Below are positions 49,748-64,000 of a stretch of 64,000 nt of DNA, piece after piece. Within the stretch, counting starts at the first letter, position 1. Each line of letters starts with the position of its first letter. The position numbers and the translations under genes are program-made. The notes below the pieces were generated by a model. The model had not been told where the DNA came from, ran no database searches, and was given only the letters and a program-made list of their open reading frames with translations. Source of the stretch: Blastococcus sp. DSM 46786 (GTDB taxonomy: Bacteria > Actinomycetota > Actinomycetes > Mycobacteriales > Geodermatophilaceae). The DNA is taken from positions 62,001 through 126,000 of the forward strand of contig NZ_FOAO01000006.1 in the NCBI RefSeq assembly GCF_900109665.1, in the 5' to 3' direction.

Positions 49748-50569
49748 CTACCGCAGGTCCGCGAGGTCCTCGCGGGTCAGCTCGGTCACCAGCGGCCGCA
49801 GGGCCCGGACCAGCGGCACGTCCACCCCCGCGTCCTCGGCCATGGCCAGCGCGACCTCCAGGTCCTTCGCCGGCCAGCGCAGCCGGTGCAGGCCCCAGTC
49901 GGCGAGCACCTGGTTGGCCCCGGTGCCGGCGCCCAGGACGCTGCGCAGGCGGCCCGGGGGGACGCCGAGGGAGCGGGCCAGCCGCAGCACCTCGACGTCG
50001 GCCCGCAACGCCGTCCACATGAGCACGTTGTTGGCGCTCTTGGCCACCTGACCGGTCCCCGGGCCGCCGATGTGGCAGACGTCGGTCGCGAACGCGGCGA
50101 AGGCCTGCGCGCACCGGTCCAGCACTGCGGCGTCCCCGCCGCACATGAGGGTCAGGCTGCCCTGCTCGGCCGCCCGCTCGCCGCCGACCAGGGCGACGTC
50201 GACGACCGCCACGTCGCGCTCGGCGGCCACCGCGGCCATCCGCACGCAGGTGTCGGGCCGCACCGACGAGCAGATCGCGACGACGGTCCCGGGACGGGCC
50301 ACGTCGCGGATGCCACCCTCGCCGGCGATCGCCTCCTCGACCTGCGCGTCGTCCACGACGACCAGCAGGACCAGGTCGGCCTCCCGCGCCACGTCGGCGG
50401 CCGAGCCGCGGAACTGCGCGCCGGCCGCCCGCACCCGCTCGTCGGCCCCCGGCGCCGGATCGGTCGCGAGCACCGGCCAGCCGCGTTCGACCAGCCAGCG
50501 GCCCATCTCCGCACCCATGCGGCCCCAGCCCACGACGCCGACCGTGCCGATCTCCCCCACGGCGCCCAT
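49748..50569 (-). CDS. 3-hydroxyisobutyrate-dehydrogenase-family oxidoreductase
   Basis: 273 residues. The Rossmann motif is VGVVGWGRMGAEMGRWLVE. The substrate-binding stretch is DVALVGGERAAEQGSLTLMCGG, and the catalytic Lys lies in GGPGTGQVAKSANNVLM. The family oxidises beta-hydroxyacids or reduces tartronate semialdehyde. The ATG overlaps the preceding stop by one base (TGATG). Last gene of the five-gene reverse operon; it may process a hydroxyacid produced by that pathway. Confidence 0.88.
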   Translation of the reverse strand: MGAVGEIGTVGVVGWGRMGAEMGRWLVERGWPVLATDPAPGADERVRAAGAQFRGSAADVAREADLVLLVVVDDAQVEEAIAGEGGIRDVARPGTVVAICSSVRPDTCVRMAAVAAERDVAVVDVALVGGERAAEQGSLTLMCGGDAAVLDRCAQAFAAFATDVCHIGGPGTGQVAKSANNVLMWTALRADVEVLRLARSLGVPPGRLRSVLGAGTGANQVLADWGLHRLRWPAKDLEVALAMAEDAGVDVPLVRALRPLVTELTREDLADLR

Positions 50570-51558
50570 CAGATGACGAACGTCTCGGTGGACTCGGGGG
50601 CGAACAGCTCCGCCGGCTCGTACTGCCGCCGGGACAGCCCCTGCTCGTGGTGGTACCGGAGGAAGGTGCTCAGCACGTGCTCGTTGCCCTGCAGCCCGTA
50701 GGACCAGTAGTCCTCCCCCATCAGCGCCCGCGCCTCCTCGAGCCCCGGGATGAGCCAGGGCAGCATGAAGCGCAGCGCCGAGGCGTCGTAGAGCTCGGCC
50801 GCCGCCTTCCGCTTGGCCAGGTGCAGCGCCTTGGTGAGGGTCTGGGCCACCCACGGGTGCCGCTCGTAGACATCCCGGCGGACCACGACGACGTGCATGA
50901 TCGGGAAGATCCCGGTCTCGGCGAAGTACTGCTTCTCCGCAGCCACCGGGTCGGCGAACAGGCGCCGCACGTTCCCGCCGGGGACGAAGGACGACGGCAC
51001 CCGCGGGCCCTGGAAGGCGTCGATCTCGCCGTCGGCCAGCATCCGCGCCAGCGTCTGGTGCGGGCCGATCGGCGAGATCCGGATGCGGTCGCCCAGGTCG
51101 ACCGCGGCCTTCTCGATGCGGCCGGGGGTCTCCTGCCCACCGGTGCGGTACTCGACCGAGTCGATCGGCACCCCGTACCGGTCGGCCAGCAGGCCGCGGA
51201 TCCAGACGTTGGCCGTCAACTGCCACTCCGGCGTCCCCACGACCTTGCCCCGGAGGTCCTCGGGCTTCTCGATGCCGGACTCCGCGTTGATGAAGATGCC
51301 GGCGTGCCGGAACTGCCGGGAGGTGTAGACCGGCAGCGCGACGAAGCCGGGGTCCTCGGCGTCCAGCGACTTGACGTACGAGGACAGCGACATCTCCGCG
51401 ACGTCGAACTCGCGGTACCGCATCATCCGGAAGAAGGTCTCCTCCACCGGCAGGCGCAGGAAGGTCAGGTCGATGCCGTCGGGGCGCACGGTGCCCTCCT
51501 CGAGGGCGCGGGTGCGGTCGTAGTCGCCGCAGGCGAAGGTCAGGTGCAGTCGGGACAC
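50569..51558 (-). CDS. 4,5-dihydroxyphthalate decarboxylase-like protein (copy 1)
   Basis: 329 residues related to Pht5-type 4,5-dihydroxyphthalate decarboxylases, which share the fold of periplasmic binding proteins: LTFACGDYDRTRALEEGTV, FRMMRYREFDVAEMSLSSY, LRGKVVGTPEWQLTANVWIR and EKQYFAETGIFPIMHVVVVR. No signal peptide, so it is intracellular and not a transporter component. It would remove CO2 from an aromatic diacid; substrate is inferred. GTG 51558, 4 bp after ligJ. Confidence 0.82.
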   Translation of the reverse strand: MSRLHLTFACGDYDRTRALEEGTVRPDGIDLTFLRLPVEETFFRMMRYREFDVAEMSLSSYVKSLDAEDPGFVALPVYTSRQFRHAGIFINAESGIEKPEDLRGKVVGTPEWQLTANVWIRGLLADRYGVPIDSVEYRTGGQETPGRIEKAAVDLGDRIRISPIGPHQTLARMLADGEIDAFQGPRVPSSFVPGGNVRRLFADPVAAEKQYFAETGIFPIMHVVVVRRDVYERHPWVAQTLTKALHLAKRKAAAELYDASALRFMLPWLIPGLEEARALMGEDYWSYGLQGNEHVLSTFLRYHHEQGLSRRQYEPAELFAPESTETFVI

Positions 51559-51562
51559 GGGC

Positions 51563-52573
51563 TCAGTTCCCTCTCAGACGGGCGTCGAGCCGGGGGTACA
51601 CCCGGCGGGCGTTGTCCTCGAAGACCGCCTGCTTCTCGGCGTCGCCCAGCCCGGCGGCGTCCAGGTAGCGCTTCGTGTCGTCCCACTCGACGCCCGTCTC
51701 GGGGTCGGCCCCGCGGACCGCGCCGAGCATCTCCGAGGCGAAGAGGATGTTCTCGGCCGGGATGACGCGGGTGAGCAGGTCGATGCCGGGCTGGTGGTAG
51801 ACGCAGGTGTCGAAGAAGACGTTGCGCAGCAGCTCGGCGGGGTCCTGCCAGCCGTTGCGCATCGCCAGCCCGCGGTAGCGGCCCCAGTGGTACGGCACCG
51901 CGCCGCCGCCGTGCGGGATGACCAGCCGCAGCGTCGGGAACCGTTCGAACAGGTTCCCTTCGAGCAGTTGCTGGAACACCGTCGTATCGGCGTTGAGGTA
52001 GTGGGCCCCGAGCGCGTGGAACACCGGGTTGCACGAGCTGGAGACGTGCACCATCGCCGGCACGTCCAGCTCGACCAGCGCCTCGTAGACCGGGAACCAG
52101 TACGGGTCGGTGAGCGGAGCGGAGGTCCAGTACCCGCCCGACGGGTCGGGGTTGAGGTTCGCCCCGACGAAACCGCGCTCCCCGACGCAGCGGCGCAGCT
52201 CGGCGACGACGCCGTCCAGCGGACCGCCGGGGGTCTGCGGGAGCTGGCACACCGGGGCGAAGTGCTGCGGGTAGAGGCCGGCCACCCGGGCGACGAGGTC
52301 GTTGCTGGCCCGCGCCCACGCCACCGCCGCCGCCGGGTCGGCGACGTGGTGCTCCATGCCCGATGCCTTGGGGCTGAAGACCATGACGTCGCCGCCGCGC
52401 TCGCGGAGGATCCGGAGCTGGTTTCCCTCGACGCTCTCGCGCAGCTCGTCGTCGCTGATGGCCGCCGGCTCCGGGGCGGCGCCCCCGCCGTCCAACGCGT
52501 CGAGCTGGGCGTTCCGGAAGCGCTGCAGCTGCGCCGGGGCGGTCGTGTAGTGACCGTGGATGTCGATGATCAC
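51563..52573 (-). CDS. ligJ: 4-oxalomesaconate hydratase, LigJ-like amidohydrolase
   Basis: 336 residues, recognisably LigJ of the protocatechuate 4,5-cleavage pathway: [14 protein letters not shown] (metal-binding His pair), [53 protein letters not shown] and [14 protein letters not shown]. LigJ hydrates 4-oxalomesaconate to 4-carboxy-4-hydroxy-2-oxoadipate. GTG 52573 overlaps the ligK-like stop by 4 nt. Its presence is the best evidence that this operon handles an aromatic-ring-derived C7 acid. Confidence 0.88.
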
Positions 52574-53274
52574 CGCGGCGGCTCCTGCTCGACGTAGGTC
52601 AGCCCCTTGGCGGCCAGCGGTTCGCGCATGCCGTTCATGTCCAGGCCGAGCTGGCCGGCCCGGTAGCGCTCGCGGATGCCGGCCTCGCGCTGCTCGCGTG
52701 CCCGGGCCGCCGCCAGCACGTCGGCGGCGCGCTCCCGCGGGACGACGACGACGCCGTCGTCGTCGGCGACCACCACGTCCCCCGGCTCGATCCACTGGCC
52801 GGCGCAGACCACGCCGACGTTGACGCTGCCCAGGGTCTCCTTGATGCAGCCGAAGGCGGAGACGTGCCGGGACCACGCCGGGAACCGCATGGCGGTCAGA
52901 TCCGCCACGTCGCGCACCCCGGCGTCCACGACCACCCCGCGGACCCCGCGGGTCGCGAGGGCGGTGGCCAGCAGGTCACCGATGTAGGCGGCCTGGGAGG
53001 GCGTGGTCGGCGCGATGACCAGGACGTCGCCCTCGGTGCACTGCTCCACGGCGACGTGCACCATCCAGTTGTCACCCGGCGGCAGGCTGACCGTCACCGC
53101 GGTGCCGGCGATGCGGGCTCCGGGGTGAACCGGCCGCAGCGCGGGGTCGAGCAGGTGCGTGCGGCCCTGCGCCTCGTGGACCGTCGCCACGCCGCAGTCG
53201 GCCAGCCCGTCGACGACCGCGCGGTCCGCCCGTGCGATGCCCGTCACGACGACGGTGCCGCGCTGGGCCCCCAT
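52570..53274 (-). CDS. ligK: 4-carboxy-4-hydroxy-2-oxoadipate aldolase, LigK/RraA-family
   Basis: 234 residues. The RraA-like core has [13 protein letters not shown] (metal and Arg site) and [16 protein letters not shown]. The C-terminus [25 protein letters not shown] matches LigK/GalC/ProA-type aldolases, which split 4-carboxy-4-hydroxy-2-oxoadipate into pyruvate and oxaloacetate. ATG 53274 overlaps the upstream stop by one base (TGATG), fixing the start. Directly before ligJ, its substrate-producing enzyme. Confidence 0.87.
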
Positions 53275-54389
53275 CAGGCGTCGCCCCACGGCTTGAGCGA
53301 GATGTGCAGCGCGTCCTCACCGGTCTCGCCGGCCAGCGCGCGGATGGCGTGGTCGACGTCCTCCAGGCCGAAGCTGTGCGTGGCCAGCCGCTCCAGCGGG
53401 AAGCGGTGCGACGCCAGCTGCTCGAGCGCGAGCTCGACCGACCGGTAGCTGTGCCCGCGGGCGCTGGCCAGCGTGATGCACTTCTCGGTCATTTTCTTCA
53501 GCGGGAAGTCGGGGAACGCAGCCTCTTCGCCCTGGGTGACCATGACGCCCTCGCGGCGCTTGAGCGCGTCGATGCCGAGCAGCACCGGAGCGGTACCGGC
53601 GCCGGAGGTGCAGTCGAGGACGACGTCGACGCCCTGTCCACCGGTGAGCTCCAGGACGGTGGCCAGCGCGTCCTCCTGGAGGACGTCGACGACCGCGTCC
53701 GCGCCGAGGTCCTTCGCCAGCTGCAGGCGGGTGGCATCGCGGGTGGTGCCGGTGACGACGATCAGCGAGGCGCCGGCCTGCTTGGAGGCCACCACCTGGG
53801 ACAGGCCCTGCTGGCCGGGGCCCTGGATGAGGACGGTCGTCGCGTAGCCGACGCCGCCGGCGTTGAGCGCCCACTCGATGCCGTTGGAGAGCGGGGTGAC
53901 CAGGCCGGCGAGCTCGGCGGTGACGCCGTCGGGGACCTTGTGGGTGACCGCGTTCCAGGGCAGGTACATGTACTGGCTGAACCCGCCCCACAGCCGGCCG
54001 GGGTTCTCCGACGACGTGTAGCCGTAGCGGCGGGCGTCGGGGTTGGTGCGCCAGTCGGTGAGCTCGCAGTGCCGGTACTCGCCGAGCCGGCACCACTCGC
54101 AGTGCATGCAGCCGACGTAGTGCTCGACGAAGATCCGGTCGCCCTCGCGGAGCCCGTGGATCTCCTGCCACGTCGCGCCGGCCTTCGCCACGATGCCGAC
54201 GTTCTCGTGACCCATGATCACCGGCGCGTCGATCGTGGGCTTGCGGTACAGCTTGACGTCGGTGCCGCAGATGCCCGCGACCTCGATCTTGAGCAGCGCG
54301 GCGTCGTCCGCGATCTCGGGCATCGGGAACTCCCGGAGCTCCGTCGTCCCGGGCCCTGTCCGGACCGCTGCCAGCACCTGCTCCGCCAT
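53274..54389 (-). CDS. Zinc-dependent alcohol dehydrogenase (full structural zinc site)
   Basis: 371 residues. The catalytic Cys and His are in [11 protein letters not shown] and MGHENVG; the structural zinc lobe is complete ([15 protein letters not shown]). The NAD(P) loop is [14 protein letters not shown]. It oxidises an alcohol of the pathway, as in vanillyl/benzyl alcohol dehydrogenases, though the substrate is unknown. GAGGAG lies 6 nt before ATG 54389. First gene of the reverse operon; the TGGTCTGACCA operator lies 50 bp upstream. Confidence 0.88.
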
Positions 54390-54438
54390 GTTCGCTCCTC
54401 GCCTCGGTGTGTCCTGCAGCACCCTAATCGACGGTCTA

Positions 54439-55432: not shown

Positions 55433-55888
55433 ATGCGGATCGCGATCGCGGCCGACCACAACGGGGTGGCGCTGAAGGCCCGGCTGGTCGAGGCGTTGCG
55501 GGCCGGCGGCCACGAGGTCGACGACCGCGGTGCGGCGTCGCACGAGGAGGTCGTCGACTACCCGCCGCTGTGCGAGGACGTCTGCCGCCGGGTGGTGGAC
55601 GGCCGGGCCGACGCCGGCGTCGTCGTCGGCGGCAGCGGGCAGGGCGAGGCCATCGCCTGCAACAAGATCGCCGGCATCCGCGCGGGGCTGTGCCCCGACG
55701 TCTGGCACGCGGAGATATCCCGCGGCAACAACGACGCCAATGTCCTGGTCCTCGGGGCCAAGGTCGTCGCGCCCGGCACCGCCGAGGTCGTGCTGCGCAC
55801 CTGGCTGGCGACGCCCTTCAAGGGAGACGTGCACGCCCGCCGCGTGGCGATGATCGCGGCGCTCGAGCGGGGCGAGTCGCTGCGCTGA
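55433..55888 (+). CDS. rpiB: RpiB/LacAB-family sugar-phosphate isomerase
   Basis: 151 residues. The family core is VVGGSGQGEAIACNK, with Glu72 in the position used as base by the mycobacterial RpiB instead of Cys, and HAEISRGNNDANVLVLGA, with active-site His and Arg. RpiB converts ribulose-5-phosphate and ribose-5-phosphate. It lies 11 bp after the decarboxylase-like gene, inside an aromatic-type operon, so it might isomerise a pathway intermediate; that is inference. ATG 55433. Confidence 0.88.
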   Translation: MRIAIAADHNGVALKARLVEALRAGGHEVDDRGAASHEEVVDYPPLCEDVCRRVVDGRADAGVVVGGSGQGEAIACNKIAGIRAGLCPDVWHAEISRGNNDANVLVLGAKVVAPGTAEVVLRTWLATPFKGDVHARRVAMIAALERGESLR

Positions 55889-56090: not shown

Positions 56091-56342
56091 GGCAGAACTC
56101 CTCGTGATCTCGAGCGGGCTCGACCGCACGGTGGTGCGACCGGCCTCCCGTGTTCGCGCCCCGGGTAGGGGCACTCGACCATTCAACACGTCGCTGAGCT
56201 GCGGAAATGCGCTCCCGGATGTGACGTCCCGCGCACTGCGGCACCAGGGACGGTGGGTTTCATCACGCTGTGGTCTTGCACACGGTGATCCGCCCCTGAC
56301 AGGATTGCCGGACTAATGGTCTGTTCTTTACTCCAGAGGTCG

Positions 56343-57437
56343 ATGCCCGCGATGAGCACCAAGACGACCACGTCGGTCACCCACTACCACGTGCAGAAGA
56401 GCCGGCGGAAGAAGTTCGTCGAGGACTGGCGGCAGAACTGGCGGACGATCGTCCGGGTCGAGGACGCCCCCCTCGTCCCGACCGAGCGCGGCTCGCGCGT
56501 CGGCGTCTACGTCGGCGCCGACGGTGACCGGCAGACCCGCACCATGGACGCCCTGGTGCACGAGATCGACCCAGGGGTCACCACGACCGTGCACCGCCAC
56601 TCGTGGGACGCGATGGTCCTGGTCGTCGGCGGCACCGGCTGGTTCGAGATCGACGGCGAGCGCATCGAGGTCGGCCCCGGGGACTCGCTGCACCTCCCCA
56701 CCTGGGCCTGGCACCGAGCCGGAGTCGACGAGGACCCGGCGGCGGGCGACATGAGCCCGCTGCGCTACATGACCTTCTCCAGCGAGCCGATGCTCGAGAC
56801 GATGGGCATGTCGGTTCTCGAGGACGCCGGTCACGCCGAGTTCGCCACGCTCCCGCCCCGGCCGCCGGTCGCCGAGGGCGCCCCGGGCGACGACCCCTAC
56901 GCCCGCCGGCTGCGCCGCGTCGCCCGCCAGCAGCAGGAGCGCCGCTCCGGGCGGCTGCACACCAGCTGGGACGACCTGGAGCTGCTGAACACCCCCCGCG
57001 GCACCCGGACGACCTTCCTGCTCGACAAGGCCATCGGCTACCAGGCCTCGGGCATCACGATGGCGATGTTCGAGATCGGGCCGGGCCGTCGTCAGTCGAT
57101 GCACCGGCACCCGGGCGAGGCCTGGCTGTACGTGCTCGACGGCACCGGCCACTCCTACGAGGGCACCGAGCCCGAGGGTGGCCGGGACTACCCCTGGAAG
57201 AAGGGCGACCTGATCGTGGTCGACCACTTCCTGTGGCACCAGCACTTCAACGACGACCCCGACAACACGGCGAAGGTCGTCCGCATCCACATGTTCGACA
57301 GCCTGCTGGAGACGATGCGGGTGCTCGCCGATCCGCTGGTGCTCTTCGAGGAGCCGCCGGACCACATCCGCGACCAGCAGGCCGGTGACGTGAGCACCAT
57401 CGAGTGGCCGGCGCTCCAGCGGCCCACCTGGCCGTAA
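56343..57437 (+). CDS. Bicupin dioxygenase-like protein
   Basis: 364 residues with two cupin domains. Cupin 1 (about 75-140) has VHRHSWDAMVLVVGGTG and LPTWAWHRAG. Cupin 2 (about 230-315) has the fuller metal site MHRHPGEAWLYVLDGTG and VDHFLWHQHFND (HxH, Glu, His). Overall shape resembles gentisate and 1-hydroxy-2-naphthoate dioxygenases, so an iron-dependent ring-cleaving or C-C-cleaving role is possible. AGAGG lies 3 nt before ATG 56343; ATG 56352 is an alternative start. First gene of the six-gene operon. Confidence 0.8.
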   Translation: MPAMSTKTTTSVTHYHVQKSRRKKFVEDWRQNWRTIVRVEDAPLVPTERGSRVGVYVGADGDRQTRTMDALVHEIDPGVTTTVHRHSWDAMVLVVGGTGWFEIDGERIEVGPGDSLHLPTWAWHRAGVDEDPAAGDMSPLRYMTFSSEPMLETMGMSVLEDAGHAEFATLPPRPPVAEGAPGDDPYARRLRRVARQQQERRSGRLHTSWDDLELLNTPRGTRTTFLLDKAIGYQASGITMAMFEIGPGRRQSMHRHPGEAWLYVLDGTGHSYEGTEPEGGRDYPWKKGDLIVVDHFLWHQHFNDDPDNTAKVVRIHMFDSLLETMRVLADPLVLFEEPPDHIRDQQAGDVSTIEWPALQRPTWP

Positions 57438-57440
57438 GGG

Positions 57441-58352
57441 ATGACGCTGAGCGCGGTCGGGCCGGCAGCGAACCACCCCCCGGGCATCGTCGGGGTCCAC
57501 GTGCTGCCGGCCGACCACCACGACGGCCCCTGGGACAGCATCATCACGCCACCGGAGGTGAAGGAGCGCCTGCTCGGCACCGCGCTGCTGGTGCTCCGCC
57601 ACGGCTGGGTGCTGGGACAGCTGGGCGGCGCCCCGCACGGGCTGGTCCTGCTGTCCGGCCCGCCCGGCACCGGCAAGACGACGCTGTGCCAGGGCCTGGC
57701 GCAGAAGGTCGCGCTGGCCCTGGCGCCGCGAGGCGCGACGACGTTCGTCGAGGTCGACCCGCACGCCTTCCCGAGCGACATGCTCGGCGAGGGACCGCGC
57801 GCCGTGCAGCGGCTGTTCTCCGACACGCTGCCCGAACTGGCGGCCCGTCGTCCGCACACCATCGTGCTCGTCGACGAGATCGAGGCGCTCGCCGTCCGGC
57901 GCAGCACCGCCAGCTTCGAGACCAACCCGGTGGACGTGCACCGGGCGACCGACGCCCTGCTCTCCGGACTGGACATGCTGCGCACGACCTGCCCGCAGGT
58001 GCTCGTCCTCGGGACGACGAACTTCGCGGCCGCCGTCGACGAGGCGTTCCTGGACCGGGCGGACCTCGTCCTGCGCCTCGGGCTGCCGGACCGCCCGACG
58101 GTCGAGCGGATCCTGCGTGAGTCCCTGGCCGAGGCCGCCGGGATCTTCCCCGGCCTGCTGGGCGTGGCGTTCGACGAGGCGCTGATCGCTGAGCTCGCCG
58201 AACGCTGCACCGGTCTCGACGGACGACGGGTGCGCAAGCTCGTGCTCTCGGCCATGGGTTCGCACCCCGAGGTCGCGCTGGACCCCGGGCTGATGACCGC
58301 CGACCACCTGCGGGCAGCGGTCGACGCCGAGCTCCCGGCTCGCGCGCGGTGA
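57441..58352 (+). CDS. TRIP13/Pch2-like AAA+ ATPase
   Basis: 303 residues. Walker A is SGPPGTGKTTLCQGLAQK (72-89), Walker B IVLVDEIEAL (141-150), sensor 1 LGTTNF (190-195), the arginine finger lies in DRADL (Arg206) and sensor 2 is GLDGRRVRKL (258-267). The phrases GKTTLC-x-LAQK, VDE-x-E-x-L, a DALLSGLDML helix and GL-x-GR-x-RKL match TRIP13/Pch2, the remodeller of HORMA proteins, rather than MoxR or CbbQ. No HORMA protein is seen here. It starts 3 bp after the bicupin and overlaps the next gene by 4 nt, so it probably acts on an enzyme of this operon. Confidence 0.85.
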   Translation: MTLSAVGPAANHPPGIVGVHVLPADHHDGPWDSIITPPEVKERLLGTALLVLRHGWVLGQLGGAPHGLVLLSGPPGTGKTTLCQGLAQKVALALAPRGATTFVEVDPHAFPSDMLGEGPRAVQRLFSDTLPELAARRPHTIVLVDEIEALAVRRSTASFETNPVDVHRATDALLSGLDMLRTTCPQVLVLGTTNFAAAVDEAFLDRADLVLRLGLPDRPTVERILRESLAEAAGIFPGLLGVAFDEALIAELAERCTGLDGRRVRKLVLSAMGSHPEVALDPGLMTADHLRAAVDAELPARAR

Positions 58353-60118
58353 GGGTGGAGCAGCCGTCGGGGCTGCCCGCCGAGCGCCCCGCCGCGGCCT
58401 GGGGCAGCGACCTGGTCGTGGACCTGCTCGCGGCCCTGGACGTCCCCTACGTGCCCCTCAACCCGGGGTCGTCGTTCCGCGGGCTGCACGACTCGCTGGT
58501 CAACCACGGCGGCAACCGCGACCCGCAGCTGCTGCTGTGCCTGCACGAGGAGGTGGCGGTCTCCCTCGCGCACGGCTGGGCCAAGGCCACCGGCCGGCTC
58601 GGCGTGGCCGCGGTGCACGACCTGGTCGGCCTCCAGCACGCCTCGATGGCGGTCTACGACGCCTTCTGCGACCGGACGCCGCTGCTGCTGCTCGGCGGCA
58701 GCGGACCCGCCGACCCGGCGCAGCGCCGACCGGTCGACTGGATCCACTCGGCGACCACGCAGGCGCAGCTGGTGCGGGACTACACGGTCTGGGACGCCGA
58801 GCCCGTGACGCCGGCCGCGTTCGTCGCCGACGTCACCCGCGCTCGGCAGCGGGCCCTGTCGGCACCGCAGGGCCCGGCGTACGTCAGCCTGGACGCCGGG
58901 GTGCAGGAGACCGCGCTCGACCGGCCGGTCCCGCTCCCCGACCTCCTCCGGCACGCCCCCGCGCCGCCGCTGGCGGCCCACCCCGATGCCGTGGAGCGGG
59001 CCGTCGAGGTGCTGGTGGAGGCCCGCTTCCCGGTGGTGGTCGCCGGCCGGGTCGGGCTCGACCCGCGGGCCACCGCGGCGGTCGGCGAGGTCGTCGAGCT
59101 GCTCGGGGCGGCCTACCGGGACGACCGGAACGTCGTCGTGCTGCCCACCCGGCACGGGCAGAACGCCACCGGGGACACCCGGCTGCTCGAGGACGCCGAC
59201 GTCGTCCTGGCGATCGACGTCGTGGACCTGCCGGCGCTGCTGCGCCGCGAGGACCGGGGCCCCCGGGGCTCGGCCGGCAGGGCCGGACGCCCCGGCCCGC
59301 TGGTGGTCGACCTCTCGCACGGCGACCTGGGCCGGCCCTCGTGGACCAACGCCTTCGGCGCCCCCCTGGCCCGCGACGTGCAGCTGCTCGCCGACCCGTT
59401 GACCGGGCTGGCGCAGCTGGTCGCGGCGCTGCACGGCCGGGTGGACCCTGCGGCCGCCGCCCGCCGCCGGGAGCAGGTCGCCGACCGGGTGCGCCGGCTG
59501 CGCGAGCGCCGGGCGGCCGAGCTGGTGCACCGGTGGGACGACCGCCCGATCTCGCCGGCCCGGCTCGTCGCCGAGACCTGGACCGCCGTCCAGGACGTCG
59601 ACCACCTGCTGTGCCTGCGCAACACCCGCACCTGGCCCGAGGGCGTCTGGGAGCTGCCCGGCGCCGGCAGCTACCTGGGCCACTCGGGAGGCGGCGGGGT
59701 GGGGTACGGCCCGGGCGCGCTGGTCGGCGGGGCCCTCGCCGCCCGCGACCGGGGACAGCTCGGCGTCGGCATCATCGGGGACGGCGACCTCCTCATGGCC
59801 TCGTCGGCGCTGTGGACCGCCGCGCACTACCGCATCCCCGCCCTCGTGGTGGTCAACGACAACTCGAGCTTCTACAACGACGAGCCGCACCAGGCCGAGG
59901 TGGCCCGGCACCGCGGACGCCCCGAGCAGAACAGCTGGATCGGCATGCGCATCAGCGACCCCGCCGTCGACATCGCCGGCCTGGCCCGCTCCTACGGCTG
60001 CTGGGCGGAAGGCCCGGTGGACGACCCGGAGGACCTCGCCGGTGCGCTGGGCCGCGGCCGCGACGCCGCCCTCGGCGGTGCGGTCGCCGTCGTGCACGTC
60101 CGGACGGCGCCGCGATGA
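58349..60118 (+). CDS. Thiamine-diphosphate-dependent enzyme, acetolactate-synthase fold (copy 1)
   Basis: 589 residues. The N-terminal pyrimidine domain has VPLNPGSSFRGLHDSLVNHGG and the activating Glu in CLHEEVAVSLAHGWAKATG. A central domain follows, then the C-terminal diphosphate domain with GDGDLLMASSALWTAAHYR and NDNSSFYNDE, the GDG...N cofactor motif. Related proteins decarboxylate or ligate 2-oxoacids; the product here is unknown. GTG 58349 overlaps the AAA+ stop (GTGA). Paralogous to the enzyme at 62219. Confidence 0.88.
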   Translation: MRVEQPSGLPAERPAAAWGSDLVVDLLAALDVPYVPLNPGSSFRGLHDSLVNHGGNRDPQLLLCLHEEVAVSLAHGWAKATGRLGVAAVHDLVGLQHASMAVYDAFCDRTPLLLLGGSGPADPAQRRPVDWIHSATTQAQLVRDYTVWDAEPVTPAAFVADVTRARQRALSAPQGPAYVSLDAGVQETALDRPVPLPDLLRHAPAPPLAAHPDAVERAVEVLVEARFPVVVAGRVGLDPRATAAVGEVVELLGAAYRDDRNVVVLPTRHGQNATGDTRLLEDADVVLAIDVVDLPALLRREDRGPRGSAGRAGRPGPLVVDLSHGDLGRPSWTNAFGAPLARDVQLLADPLTGLAQLVAALHGRVDPAAAARRREQVADRVRRLRERRAAELVHRWDDRPISPARLVAETWTAVQDVDHLLCLRNTRTWPEGVWELPGAGSYLGHSGGGGVGYGPGALVGGALAARDRGQLGVGIIGDGDLLMASSALWTAAHYRIPALVVVNDNSSFYNDEPHQAEVARHRGRPEQNSWIGMRISDPAVDIAGLARSYGCWAEGPVDDPEDLAGALGRGRDAALGGAVAVVHVRTAPR

Positions 60119-61563
60119 CCGGGCCGGCCGGCCACCGCCGCATGATGGTCGGCGGCCAGTGGCGGGACGCCGCCGACGGGGCGGTCCTGGAGGCCGAGAA
60201 CCCGGCCACCGAGGAGGTCATCGGCACCTTCCCCGCCGGCACGGCCGCCGACGTCGATGCCGCGGTGGCCGCCGCGGCGGAGGCGGCGCCCGCCTGGCAG
60301 GCGCTGGGCTGGGCGGAGCGGGCTCGGCTGCTCCGGGAACTGGCCGGGGCCCTGCGCGAGGAGCGCGAGCTGCTCGCCCGCCTGGACACCAGCGACGGCG
60401 GTTCGCCCGTCACCGCCATGCGGGCCGACGTCGACGGTGCCGTCAAGGAGCTCGAGTACTTCGCGGGGATCGCCTCGCAGACCCGCGGCAGCACGGCGCC
60501 GCCGGACTCCGGCTCGCTCTCCTACACGCTGCGCCAGCCCTACGGCGTGGTCGGCCGGATCGTCCCCTACAACCACCCGCTGAAGTTCGCCGCGGGCAAG
60601 TGCGCCGCGCCCCTCGCCGCCGGCAACACCGTCGTCCTGAAGCCCGGCGAGCAGACCTCGTTGTCGGCCCTCGAGCTGGCCCGCATCACCGGGGCGATCC
60701 TGCCGCCGGGCGTGCTGAACGTGGTCACCGGCGCCGGGGACGTGGTCGGCAACCGGCTGGTCGCGCACCCCGACGTCCCCCGGATCGCGTTCACCGGCTC
60801 GGTGCCCACCGGCCGCGCGGTGCTGCACGCCGCGGCCGACGAGATCAAGCACGTGTCCCTGGAGCTGGGCGGGAAGAACCCGGTGCTGGTCTTCCCGGAC
60901 GCCGACCCGGAGCGGGCCGCGCGGGCCGCGGTGGCGGGGATGAACATCGTCCGCTCGACCGGGCAGAGCTGCGGCTCGGGCACGCGGCTGTTCGTGCACG
61001 ACGACGTGCGCGGCCCCTTCCTGGACGCCCTCCACCGCCGCCTCGACGAGCTGCGGATCGGCGACCCGCACGACGAGGAGACGGAGGTCGGCCCGCTGTC
61101 CTTCCGCGCCCACTACGAACGGGTGACCGGCCTCGTGGAGACGGCGCGCCGGGAGGGGGCCACGGTCGCCTACGGGGGTGACCGGCCTGCCGGGCTGGAC
61201 CGGGGGTACTACCTGCGGCCGACCGTCCTCACCGATCTCGACGACGGGATGACCGTCGTCCGGGAGGAGATCTTCGGCCCGGTCATGGCGGTGCTCGGCT
61301 GGCGCGACGTCGACGACGTCGTCCGGCGGGCCAACGCGCTGCCGCTGGGGCTCACCGCCAACATCTGGACCAACGACGTGAGCACCGCGGTGCGTACCGC
61401 CGCCGCCGTCGAGGCCGGCTACGTGTACGTCAACGGCACCGGGCGCCGGCCCACCGGCATGCCCTTCGGCGGGTGGAAGCGCAGCGGCCTGGGCCAGGAG
61501 AACGGGCCGGAGGAGCTGGTCTCCTACACGCGGGAGAAGGCCGTCACCGTGACGCTGCTGTGA
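60115..61563 (+). CDS. NAD(P)-dependent aldehyde dehydrogenase
   Basis: 482 residues. Catalytic Cys lies in STGQSCGSGTRL and Glu in VSLELGGKNPVLV. RIVPYNHPLKFAAGKCAAPL, AFTGSVPTGRAVL and EEIFGPVMAVLGW are the usual ALDH motifs. The ATG overlaps the upstream stop (ATGA). Between two thiamine-diphosphate enzymes, it would oxidise the aldehyde released by decarboxylation, as in benzoylformate-type pathways; that is inference. Confidence 0.92.
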   Translation: MTGPAGHRRMMVGGQWRDAADGAVLEAENPATEEVIGTFPAGTAADVDAAVAAAAEAAPAWQALGWAERARLLRELAGALREERELLARLDTSDGGSPVTAMRADVDGAVKELEYFAGIASQTRGSTAPPDSGSLSYTLRQPYGVVGRIVPYNHPLKFAAGKCAAPLAAGNTVVLKPGEQTSLSALELARITGAILPPGVLNVVTGAGDVVGNRLVAHPDVPRIAFTGSVPTGRAVLHAAADEIKHVSLELGGKNPVLVFPDADPERAARAAVAGMNIVRSTGQSCGSGTRLFVHDDVRGPFLDALHRRLDELRIGDPHDEETEVGPLSFRAHYERVTGLVETARREGATVAYGGDRPAGLDRGYYLRPTVLTDLDDGMTVVREEIFGPVMAVLGWRDVDDVVRRANALPLGLTANIWTNDVSTAVRTAAAVEAGYVYVNGTGRRPTGMPFGGWKRSGLGQENGPEELVSYTREKAVTVTLL

Positions 61564-62222
61564 GCGCGGCGGCCGACCCCGGCCTCTTCCGCGGGGAGGA
61601 GCGGCTGGACCCGGAGCGCACCGTGCTCTGCGTCTTCGACCTGCTCGAGCACTACCGCGCCGCGGCCGAGGCCGCCGGGGTGGTCCCGACGGTGCGGCGG
61701 CTGGCCGACGGGTGCCGCGAGCGCGGCGTCGTCGTCGCCTGGGCCCGCGCCGACCACCGCGCCGACGGGCTGGACCTGGCCCGCTCCCTGTCGGACCTGG
61801 ACGGCGCCCACCGCGCCTTCGGCCCCGGCCACCCGCGCCCCCAGCGCCCGCCCGCCGGCTCCGGGGACGCGGCGTACCGCACGCTGGCCGAGCTCGGGCA
61901 GCGCCCGGAGGACGTCGACGTCCCCAAGCACCGCTGGTCCGCGCTCGAGGGCACCTGCCTGCTCCCGACGATGCGGGCACGGGGCGCCGACACCCTGCTG
62001 CTGGTGGGCGGCTCCACGCACGTCGGGATCGCCGCCACCGCCTACGCCGCCCGCGATCTGGATCTCCAGGTCGTCGTCGTCCGCGACGGCCTGACCGGCC
62101 GGGAGCCGCAGCGCTCCTTCTTCGCCGACGAGGTGTTCCCCCGGATCTGCCGGGTGCGCAGCACCGACGAGGTGCTGGCCGCCCTCGACCGCCCATCCCC
62201 GACCACAGGAGCCCCCGCATGA
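61560..62222 (+). CDS. Isochorismatase-fold hydrolase with Gly in place of the catalytic Cys
   Basis: 220 residues. Asp27 (VFDLLEHYRA) and Lys123 (VPKHRWSALEGT) of the family triad are present, but the nucleophile site reads GGSTHVGIAATAYA, with Gly156 where cysteine hydrolases have Cys. True isochorismatases (EntB, PhzD) have the same GxxxHIG-type loop and use the Asp alone on a vinyl ether. So amidase activity is unlikely and vinyl-ether or related hydrolysis is possible. GTG 61560 overlaps the ALDH stop, and its own stop overlaps the next ATG. Confidence 0.82.
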   Translation: MSAAADPGLFRGEERLDPERTVLCVFDLLEHYRAAAEAAGVVPTVRRLADGCRERGVVVAWARADHRADGLDLARSLSDLDGAHRAFGPGHPRPQRPPAGSGDAAYRTLAELGQRPEDVDVPKHRWSALEGTCLLPTMRARGADTLLLVGGSTHVGIAATAYAARDLDLQVVVVRDGLTGREPQRSFFADEVFPRICRVRSTDEVLAALDRPSPTTGAPA

Positions 62223-64000
62223 CCGACCGGCCCGACGCCAGTGGCAAGGACCCTGCTTCCTACGAGAGGGAGCACGACCGCGGCGGCAACTTCGCCCCCT
62301 ACGACAAGCCCGAGTGGGGCTCCGACGTCATGGTCGACGTCCTCCGGGGGCTCGGCCTGCGCTACGTCGCGCTGAACCCGGGCTCGTCGTTCCGTGGGTT
62401 GCACGACTCGCTGGTCAACTACGGCGGTGATGCGATCGAGATGATCGAGTGCCCGCACGAGAAGATCGCCGTCGCCCTGGCGCACGGCTACGCCAAGGCC
62501 ACCGGCGAGCCCATGGCGGTGCTCCTGCACGACCTGGTCGGCCTGCTGCAGGGCACGATGGGCGTCTACTACAGCTACATCGACCGCACCCCGGTGATCG
62601 TCCTCGGCGGCTCCGGCCCGGCCGAGCACGACCGGCGGCGGCCCAACATCGACTGGATCCACTCGGCGAACGTGCAGGGCGAGGCGGTGCGCGCCTACAC
62701 CAAGTGGGACCACGAGCCGCGCAGCCTGCCGTCGGTGCAGACCGTGCTGGCGCGGGCCCACCGGATCGCGATGGAGGAGCCCCGCGGGCCGGTCTACATC
62801 GCCCTCGACGCGGGCCTGCAGGAGTCGCCGGTTCTCGAGCCGGTGCCGCTGGACGACCTGCCCCGGCTGGCCGCCGTCCCCTCCCGGCTGGCGCCGGAAC
62901 CGCAGGCCCTGCGGCGGCTGGCCGAGATGCTGTGCGCCGCGCAGCGCCCGGTGATCGTCCCCTCGTACGCCGGACGCGACCCGCAGAGCTTCTCCACGCT
63001 CGTCGACCTGGCCGAGACGGTCGGCATCGGCGTCGTCGAGACGCACTGGCGGCTGAACTTCCCGAACCGGCACCCGTTGAACGTCACCGGCAGCACTGCG
63101 CTCGAGGACGCCGACTGCGTGCTGTTCGTCGACGTCAAGGACATGGGCAAGCCGACCCAGAAGCTGGACTCGGTCACCCGGAGCATCCAGTCGAAACTCG
63201 CCCCGGGCACGACCGTGCTCGACATCGGCTTCAACGACGTCGGCATCTCCTCCTGGAGCGAGGACTACGCCGAACTGCTGCCGACCGACCTGCAGATCAC
63301 CGCGGACACCGCGGTGGCCCTGCCGCTGCTGCTCGAGGAGTGCCGCCGCCTCGTCGCCGCGGACGACGACGCGCGCGCCGCCCTCCGCCAGGCCTGGCGC
63401 GAGGACCTCACCGCCCGGCACGACGAGGTGTGGGCCGGCTGGCGGGCCACGGCCGCCGAGAAGCGGGACGAGGTCCCCGTGTCCACGTCCCGGCTGGCCG
63501 AGGAGGTCTGGGCGGTCGTCCAGGAGCACGACTGGGTGCTCACCGCCGGCACGGCCGCGGAGTGGGCGCTGCGCACCTGGGACTTCGACGCCCCGCACCG
63601 GCACCCGGGCAAGCAGCTGGGCACCGCGACGCAGATCGGCATCTCCCTCGGCGTCGCGCTGGCGCACAAGGGCACCGACCGGCTCGTGGTCGACCTGCAG
63701 CCCGACGGCGACCTGATGTTCGACGCCGGCGCCCTCTGGGTGGCCAGCCGGTACGAGCTGCCGCTGCTGGTGGTCATGTTCAACAACCGCGCGTACTACA
63801 ACGACTGGGAGCACCAGGAGCGGCTGGCCCGCCAGCGCGGCACCCCGGTCTCCCGCGCGCACATCGGCATGGCCATCGACACACCTGCGCCGGACTTCGC
63901 CGCGCTGGCCAGGTCCTTCGGCTGGTGGGCCGAGGGGCCGATCGAGGACCCCGACGACATCCGGGACGCCGTCCGCCGCGCCGCCGAGCACGTGCTCGCC
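62219..64000 (+). CDS. Thiamine-diphosphate-dependent enzyme (copy 2, 3' end outside the window)
   Basis: 594 codons are visible without a stop. The pyrimidine domain has ALNPGSSFRGLHDSLVNYGG and the Glu in CPHEKIAVALAHGYAKATG; the cofactor motif is PDGDLMFDAGALWVASRYE with FNNRAYYNDWEH. It is clearly paralogous to the enzyme at 58349 (shared LNPGSSFRGLHDSLVN and VDWIHSA/IDWIHSA segments) but diverged. ATG 62219 overlaps the upstream stop (ATGA). The pair may form a hetero-oligomer or act on successive 2-oxoacids. Only a short C-terminus is likely missing. Confidence 0.88.
   Translation, partial: MTDRPDASGKDPASYEREHDRGGNFAPYDKPEWGSDVMVDVLRGLGLRYVALNPGSSFRGLHDSLVNYGGDAIEMIECPHEKIAVALAHGYAKATGEPMAVLLHDLVGLLQGTMGVYYSYIDRTPVIVLGGSGPAEHDRRRPNIDWIHSANVQGEAVRAYTKWDHEPRSLPSVQTVLARAHRIAMEEPRGPVYIALDAGLQESPVLEPVPLDDLPRLAAVPSRLAPEPQALRRLAEMLCAAQRPVIVPSYAGRDPQSFSTLVDLAETVGIGVVETHWRLNFPNRHPLNVTGSTALEDADCVLFVDVKDMGKPTQKLDSVTRSIQSKLAPGTTVLDIGFNDVGISSWSEDYAELLPTDLQITADTAVALPLLLEECRRLVAADDDARAALRQAWREDLTARHDEVWAGWRATAAEKRDEVPVSTSRLAEEVWAVVQEHDWVLTAGTAAEWALRTWDFDAPHRHPGKQLGTATQIGISLGVALAHKGTDRLVVDLQPDGDLMFDAGALWVASRYELPLLVVMFNNRAYYNDWEHQERLARQRGTPVSRAHIGMAIDTPAPDFAALARSFGWWAEGPIEDPDDIRDAVRRAAEHVLA

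Follow-up and report, generated by a model that had tools for sequence, protein, structure and literature searches.

A TRIP13/Cap6-family AAA+ ATPase encoded with a bicupin: a candidate remodelling chaperone for a dioxygenase-like enzyme

The locus and its genes

The window, by which we mean the whole 64,000-nucleotide stretch of Blastococcus sp. DSM 46786 DNA analysed here, encodes a 303-residue AAA+ ATPase of the TRIP13/Cap6 family at 57441..58352 on the forward strand (an ATG-to-TGA frame, with the family assigned by sequence, fold and phylogeny). All motifs that a sequence-only reading had quoted for this protein were found: GPPGTGKTTLC from residue 73, VDEIEAL from residue 144, DRAD at residues 205–208 and GLDGRRVRK at residues 258–266. 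On the same strand, Walker A (GPPGTGKT, residues 73–80) lies at 57657..57680, Walker B (VLVDE, residues 142–146) at 57864..57878, DRAD at 58053..58064 and the GLDGRRVRK sensor 2 region at 58212..58238. The pore loop 1 region (residues 108–120, HAFPSDMLGEGPR, 57762..57800, forward strand) was placed by alignment to Pch2 and differs in all aligned CBASS rows. Across the 57 rows of alignment A4, residues G73, G76, T77, G78, K79, D145, N194, R206 and K266 are invariant, and the Walker A, Walker B, sensor 1 and arginine residues of the ATPase are intact; R206, within DRAD, is by analogy presumably the arginine finger.

The nearest homologue in our genome collection scan, from Blastococcus capsensis, is 90% identical. 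The other matches in the window's genome at E 0.001 or better are four AAA+ frames at 28–34% identity.

The gene sits tightly between its neighbours, as first described. A 3-bp gap (57438..57440) separates it from the stop of a bicupin gene (56316..57437, +), the likely client, and its own stop overlaps by 4 bp the gene of a ThDP-dependent enzyme (enzyme 1; 58349..60118, +, Pfam), which opens with GTG at 58349 and is not a conserved neighbour. Pfam further identifies an RpiB-like sugar isomerase upstream on the same strand (55433..55888, +) and, downstream, an aldehyde dehydrogenase (60115..61563, +) and an isochorismatase-family hydrolase (61560..62222, +); a second ThDP-type enzyme, named by its resemblance to enzyme 1, runs off the window (62219..64000, +). 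On the opposite strand, positions 49748–54422 hold a protein of the NAD-binding hydroxyacid dehydrogenase type, an NMT1/phosphonate-binding-like protein, an Amidohydro_2 protein and an RraA-like aldolase, with an alcohol-dehydrogenase-like frame recognized by eye at 53274–54422 (−); to us this cluster recalls aromatic acid catabolism.

Assignment to the TRIP13/Pch2 family

The ATPase belongs to the TRIP13/Pch2 (Cap6) family, a well-supported assignment on which sequence (Pfam, PADLOC and PDB comparisons), fold and phylogeny agree with what had been proposed from the sequence-only reading. It scores 77.2 bits against Pfam AAA (PF00004, cut-off 21.2) and 291.9 bits against the PADLOC TRIP13 model PDLC00915. 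Its top PDB sequence matches are Pch2/TRIP13 chains, with Pch2 at E 6.5e-30, and a family profile gives 181.6 bits for TRIP13 and 148.3 bits for Cdc48. The AlphaFold2 model (mean pLDDT 89.3) has a TRIP13-like fold over the chain and matches E. coli Trip13 best (6p8v_A; VIA Z 26.1, rmsd 2.7, 270 aligned residues), with Z 24.5 for human TRIP13 (6f0x_B) and 23.1 for PCH-2 (4xgu_E), compared to 22.5 for the best chain outside the family. The 16 best chains in Foldseek are all TRIP13, PCH-2 or Trip13. Counting against the assignment, the Rhizobiales Trip13 (6pb3) reaches only Z 21.4, level with unrelated AAA+ chains.

Placement with the MoxR/CbbQ proteins, the outcome that the sequence-only reading had named as evidence against its proposal, is not seen by Pfam, family profile or structure comparison. 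The MoxR-class domain PF07726 (AAA_3) reaches 18.2 bits, below its cut-off of 27 and compared to 77.2 for PF00004, and no VWA partner was found among the seven window genes scanned with Pfam. Eukaryotic TRIP13/Pch2 proteins are the best PDB sequence matches and give VIA Z values of 22.3–24.5, but the window ATPase lacks the residues before about 105–125 of the eukaryotic chains, and thus the eukaryotic N-terminal domain. The eukaryotic proteins also have a HORMA client, TRIP13 working through local unfolding of its client, whereas no HORMA client was found for the window ATPase.

CBASS relatives and the search for HORMA and CD-NTase partners

Outside its own clade, the nearest relatives of the ATPase are the Cap6 ATPases of type III CBASS loci (38–46% identity). 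A plasmid protein search returned, among the 40 matches listed, 12 records at 39.7–46% identity and 87–96% coverage; nine of these 12 records at ≥39.7% identity were read (H4, H5 and H11 being left out), and all nine are CBASS loci with an ATPase, two small proteins and a CBASS cyclase. A profile built from the second small protein hits bacterial HORMA proteins of known structure (E 1.3e-75).

Profiles built from these related loci for HORMA (A1) and CD-NTase (A2), which could miss distant forms, each matched all three CBASS genomes; the 21 genomes with a cupin-type ATPase, the window's included, gave no match (24 genomes searched in all). The sequence-only reading had reported no HORMA protein or nucleotidyltransferase around the gene, and the models extend this to the window's whole genome. 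The make-up of a type III CBASS, a CD-NTase accompanied by HORMA and effector, was not found: no CD-NTase or HORMA was detected among the window genes (Pfam) or in the genome (A1, A2).

Compared with Cap6/Trip13 of type III CBASS (E. coli 6p8v and plasmid loci L100–L108), the window ATPase has the same AAA+ fold and length, is 38–43% identical over nine aligned rows, contains a segment of the ASFETNPVDVHRATDA type common to both, and is encoded, as they are, next to its likely client. It differs in having a cupin neighbour and no HORMA or CD-NTase found by these searches, in its pore loop 1, and in that a His-rich tail occurs in one cupin-type subclade.

A haloarchaeal plasmid relative of the ATPase (H13; L109:4908-8107) has two weak HORMA-like neighbours at 21–23% identity, and this locus is perhaps a distant archaeal relative of CBASS.

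Conservation of the bicupin pairing

The conserved partner gene of the ATPase is the bicupin and not the ThDP enzyme, a conclusion that is well supported. The genome collection scan gave 74 loci; one of them, L079, was a weak match (33% over 84 residues) and was excluded from the counts. Of the remaining 73 homologous loci, 71 have a bicupin upstream in the same orientation; the 73 come from three phyla but form one clade and are not independent, as the scan reaches close relatives only. A ThDP1-like gene was recorded in at least 17 of the 73, a lower bound because some loci are cut by contig ends. The expectation that homologues would be conserved next to both cupin and ThDP genes thus held for the first and failed for the second.

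Of the two exceptions, one contig (L076) starts inside the ATPase gene, and one locus (L072) has no bicupin in its 11.3 kb. In the latter, ABC transporter genes and a ThDP2-like enzyme come before the ATPase (L072:5963-6844, +). In 35 of the 71 pairs a candidate start codon of the ATPase shares 4 bp with the bicupin stop; in 33 more it lies within 40 bp, and in three it is farther away. Two bicupins (L016, L024) are split over two frames and two (L051, L067) are cut by contig ends.

Two overlapping genome draws, less biased than the scan, broaden this picture. In Actinomycetes, 10 of 394 genomes carry the ATPase at E 1e-20 or better: five with an adjacent bicupin, three as CBASS loci, one (G344) with two single-cupin genes just upstream and one (G328) with a single-cupin gene upstream. 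In Actinomycetota, it occurs in three of 396 genomes, namely the window's, G183, where the bicupin adjoins the ATPase but the two genes are convergent and so do not form one operon, and G742, a CBASS locus. Over both draws, 12 distinct genomes have the ATPase, eight beside cupin genes and four in CBASS loci.

Searched with the bicupin, the 394 genomes gave nine matches in seven genomes; the five at 74–100% identity all have the ATPase adjacent, and the remaining four, at 46–50% identity in G344 and G329, have no ATPase nearby, which counts against the proposed partnership. The 396 genomes gave three matches, two with the ATPase adjacent and the third a sister bicupin in G032 (58% identity) with no ATPase in the 13 kb read; that this genome is also not among the three of 396 with an ATPase match is a further point against.

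Two arrangements may be recorded here. At L128:8740-9875 (−), two adjacent single-cupin genes precede a divergent ATPase, as though a bicupin had been split in two. At L148:5893-7066 (−), a sister bicupin stands without the ATPase; its locus also contains another cupin-like frame, a ThDP2-like enzyme and ABC transporter genes.

Phylogeny and parallel divergence

In a tree of 91 ATPase rows, the 71 bicupin-type rows, the window's included, form one group (support 99/99). L072 and L137 join this group at 90/78, and neither the CBASS rows nor the two split-cupin rows belong to it. The tree was drawn at the midpoint, and the very long branches of the outgroup and archaeal rows leave the root, and with it the order in which cupin and HORMA partnerships arose, unsure. 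On the best tree the CBASS rows need two changes, and 48% of bootstrap trees separate them from all other rows by a single branch.

The bicupin tree holds 32 of the 71 linked bicupins, the window's, L137 and five without an ATPase. A single branch, modestly supported (81/58), sets apart its 33 rows with upstream pairing; including L137 raises the support to 93/98. Next to these rows stands the G032 bicupin, which has no ATPase.

Over 67 loci, the distances between ATPases are correlated with those between bicupins (Mantel r 0.649, against at most 0.177 in 2000 permutations). For 59 of the 67, at least one locus occurs both among the three closest ATPases and among the three closest bicupins. 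The test covered 67 pairs out of a possible 74, made up of L137 and 66 of the 73 loci, with L016, L024, L051, L065, L067, L072 and L076 left out. Such parallel divergence would be expected whether the two genes were inherited together or transferred as a unit.

Pore loop 1 and His-rich tails

Pore loop 1 separates the two partnerships. The pattern P-x-[DE]-[MLF]-L-G is present in every one of the 44 cupin-type rows that alignment A4 contains, two split-cupin rows included, and in none of its 12 CBASS rows; so clean a split would make substrate choice testable.

A His-rich C-terminal extension with 5–14 His is present in 13 of 73 ATPase homologues, by record title from six Acidobacteriota, six Betaproteobacteria and one Acidimicrobiia (the C-terminal tail of L073 lies beyond its contig end). 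No comparable tail was seen in nine aligned CBASS rows. Such tails are common in metallochaperones, and their presence here is suggestive of a metallochaperone role. Against this, the 11 of these 13 His-tailed ATPases that were in the tree form one clade (96/87), limiting the tail to one subclade, and the window's own ATPase has none.

The bicupin as likely client

The bicupin frame opens with an ATG at 56316, but translation probably starts at the ATG at 56352, near which most bicupin homologues begin. From there the protein would open with a Thr-rich N-terminal tail (MSTKTTTSVT, residues 13–22 of the longer frame, 56352..56381, +), in which T17 and T19 are invariant in 34 rows. Each cupin domain contributes conserved residues that are likely metal ligands by alignment: HRH in cupin 1 (H93, H95; 56592..56600, +) and HRHPGE in cupin 2 (H263, H265, E268; 57102..57119, +). 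In 34 chosen bicupins, H95, H133, H263, H265, E268, H308 and H310 are invariant and H93 is conserved in 33; the conserved His and Glu of both cupins are likely to bind metal.

The bicupin model (mean pLDDT 83.9, falling to 61 over residues 11–20, where the model is unsure) gives VIA Z 25.4 with salicylate 1,2-dioxygenase (2phd), 25.1 with gentisate 1,2-dioxygenase (3bu7) and 22.1 with MncA (2vqa). The bicupin fold is common to all of them, but identity in the structural alignments is 16–18%, and the protein falls short of the curated gentisate family cut-off (TIGR02272, 48.6 bits vs 442.1).

The pattern T-x-T-x-x-[TSA]-H-[YW], drawn up after the sequences had been inspected, occurs in 69 of the 74 bicupin tails read; the five without it are the L024 fragment and four ATPase-less bicupins of L129–L131. 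We rejected a tail motif common to HORMA clients and bicupins, as residue order is no more alike than composition explains: in shuffles of eight tails, 47 to 585 of 1000 scored as high. The median bicupin tail score was reached by 31 of 842 background N-termini, whose starts are uncertain. Both kinds of tail are short and Thr-rich, and this likeness of composition is a hint.

The genes around the pair, which include ABC and TctA transporters, a Rieske oxygenase, an amidohydrolase, a class II aldolase and ThDP enzymes (scanned as cluster representatives outside the window), vary too much between loci to name a substrate of the bicupin. Iron supply was also considered: a solute-binding protein stands beside many pairs, and one representative of it matched ferric-binding proteins in the PDB weakly (E 4e-9 to 3e-7), too little to name a transporter cargo.

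A remodelling role for the ATPase and its alternatives

We propose that the ATPase is a dedicated remodelling chaperone of the dioxygenase-like bicupin, most likely aiding metal uptake or renewal by partial unfolding, and give this reading a probability of roughly 55%. From the sequence alone it had been suggested that the ATPase may activate or disassemble an enzyme of the operon. The client of an ATPase from the TRIP13/Cap6 lineage would then be a cupin protein instead of a HORMA protein. Judging from its fold, the ATPase would assemble into a ring and engage the bicupin encoded just upstream, perhaps gripping it by the conserved Thr-rich N-terminal tail, and would spend ATP on a partial opening of the cupin barrels. 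Most likely this would admit the correct metal, or release a wrong or spent one, making the ATPase an activase or a metal-loading chaperone. The fullest form of the idea, an ATP-driven metal-loading chaperone in which a TRIP13-fold unfoldase, His-tailed in one lineage, opens a bicupin holding a folding-trapped metal for loading or replacement, is more tentative, and we would not put it at even odds.

We know of no earlier dedicated activase of a cupin enzyme, and of no earlier TRIP13-family ATPase encoded with a cupin client; each would be a first. A search of the open-licence literature found no report joining a TRIP13-like ATPase and a cupin. In the literature surveyed, TRIP13-family ATPases act mainly on HORMA proteins, in meiosis, the spindle checkpoint and CBASS; Pch2 is also reported in complex with Orc1 (PMC7442955), and a paper on conflict systems pairs TRIP13 with HORMA without using the word cupin (PMC7159879). 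A second conserved clientele would show that the TRIP13 remodeller is not tied to HORMA.

Precedents for the separate steps come from several systems. The MncA bicupin takes up its metal during folding and then holds it, with no exchange of nickel for copper in 24 h (PMC11742986), and an MncA-like enzyme with a metal trapped at folding would gain from a machine able to open it. TRIP13 unfolds Mad2 locally and requires the Mad2 N-terminus, although whether unfolding starts there is disputed (PMC5717197); ClpX activates ALAS by a limited unfolding that gates cofactor binding, aided by an unstructured N-terminal extension (PMC7077987); and NorQD drives metal insertion into nitric oxide reductase (PMC13036017). 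From these precedents together we infer that the ATPase may grip and open the bicupin for metal. NorQ/NorD resemble the proposed role as an AAA+-assisted metal insertion into an enzyme (PMC13036017), but they are of the MoxR class of AAA+ proteins, and the seven scanned window genes include no VWA partner. If the metal idea is true, it would offer an explanation of how cells correct a bicupin that has trapped the wrong metal at folding.

The main rival to a metal purpose, which we consider rather unlikely but well ahead of the other alternatives, keeps the ATPase as an activase or assembly factor of the bicupin that strips a bound inhibitor or product, or builds or dismantles oligomers. The pairing, pore-loop and co-divergence data fit it equally, and it has a precedent among AAA+ proteins in the Rubisco activases CbbX and CbbQO, which remodel a metabolic enzyme. 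These share the proposed logic, while being other AAA+ proteins with another client. The His-rich tails in 13 of 73 homologues and the ligands conserved in both cupins point instead to metal, without deciding the matter. We regard it as improbable that the ATPase lowers bicupin levels as a form of pathway control, unfolding the protein or passing it to a protease: TRIP13-type ATPases do unfold specific clients (PMC5717197), but no protease gene is present among the window operon genes scanned; the neighbours at the other loci were covered through cluster representatives.

Slightly less probable again is service to another operon enzyme, with the ThDP enzyme and the aldehyde dehydrogenase as candidates. 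The 4-bp overlap with the ThDP gene in the window would suit it, and the contrast between a ThDP1-like gene at 17 or more of 73 loci and a bicupin at 71 argues the other way. Least probable of all, in our judgement, is a displaced defence ATPase acting on a HORMA protein that is encoded elsewhere or too distant to recognize. Its nearest outside relatives are indeed the Cap6 proteins of CBASS, and a HORMA model made from related CBASS loci could miss distant forms; even so, the HORMA and CD-NTase models matched none of the 21 genomes and the cupin pairing extends over three phyla.

Annotation hazard and a possible neighbouring reactivase

The PADLOC model PDLC00915 gives the window ATPase 291.9 bits though no CBASS partner was found in its genome, an annotation hazard. 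That a TRIP13 model for finding defence systems scores so highly on a protein outside any detected defence locus is a warning. As a census tool the same model was rejected: at E 0.001 it had a match in every one of 296 Actinomycetota genomes and in all 14 controls, with only G000 and G183 below 1e-80 and the next at 1.1e-23. It picks up other AAA+ proteins, and protein searches were therefore used for the census.

At L020:13042-14910 (−), a EutA-like protein is encoded (Pfam E 2.6e-110), a member of the ethanolamine ammonia-lyase reactivating factor family. A EutA-like cluster lies near the pair in 11 of 74 loci, and the EutA-like protein is possibly another reactivase.
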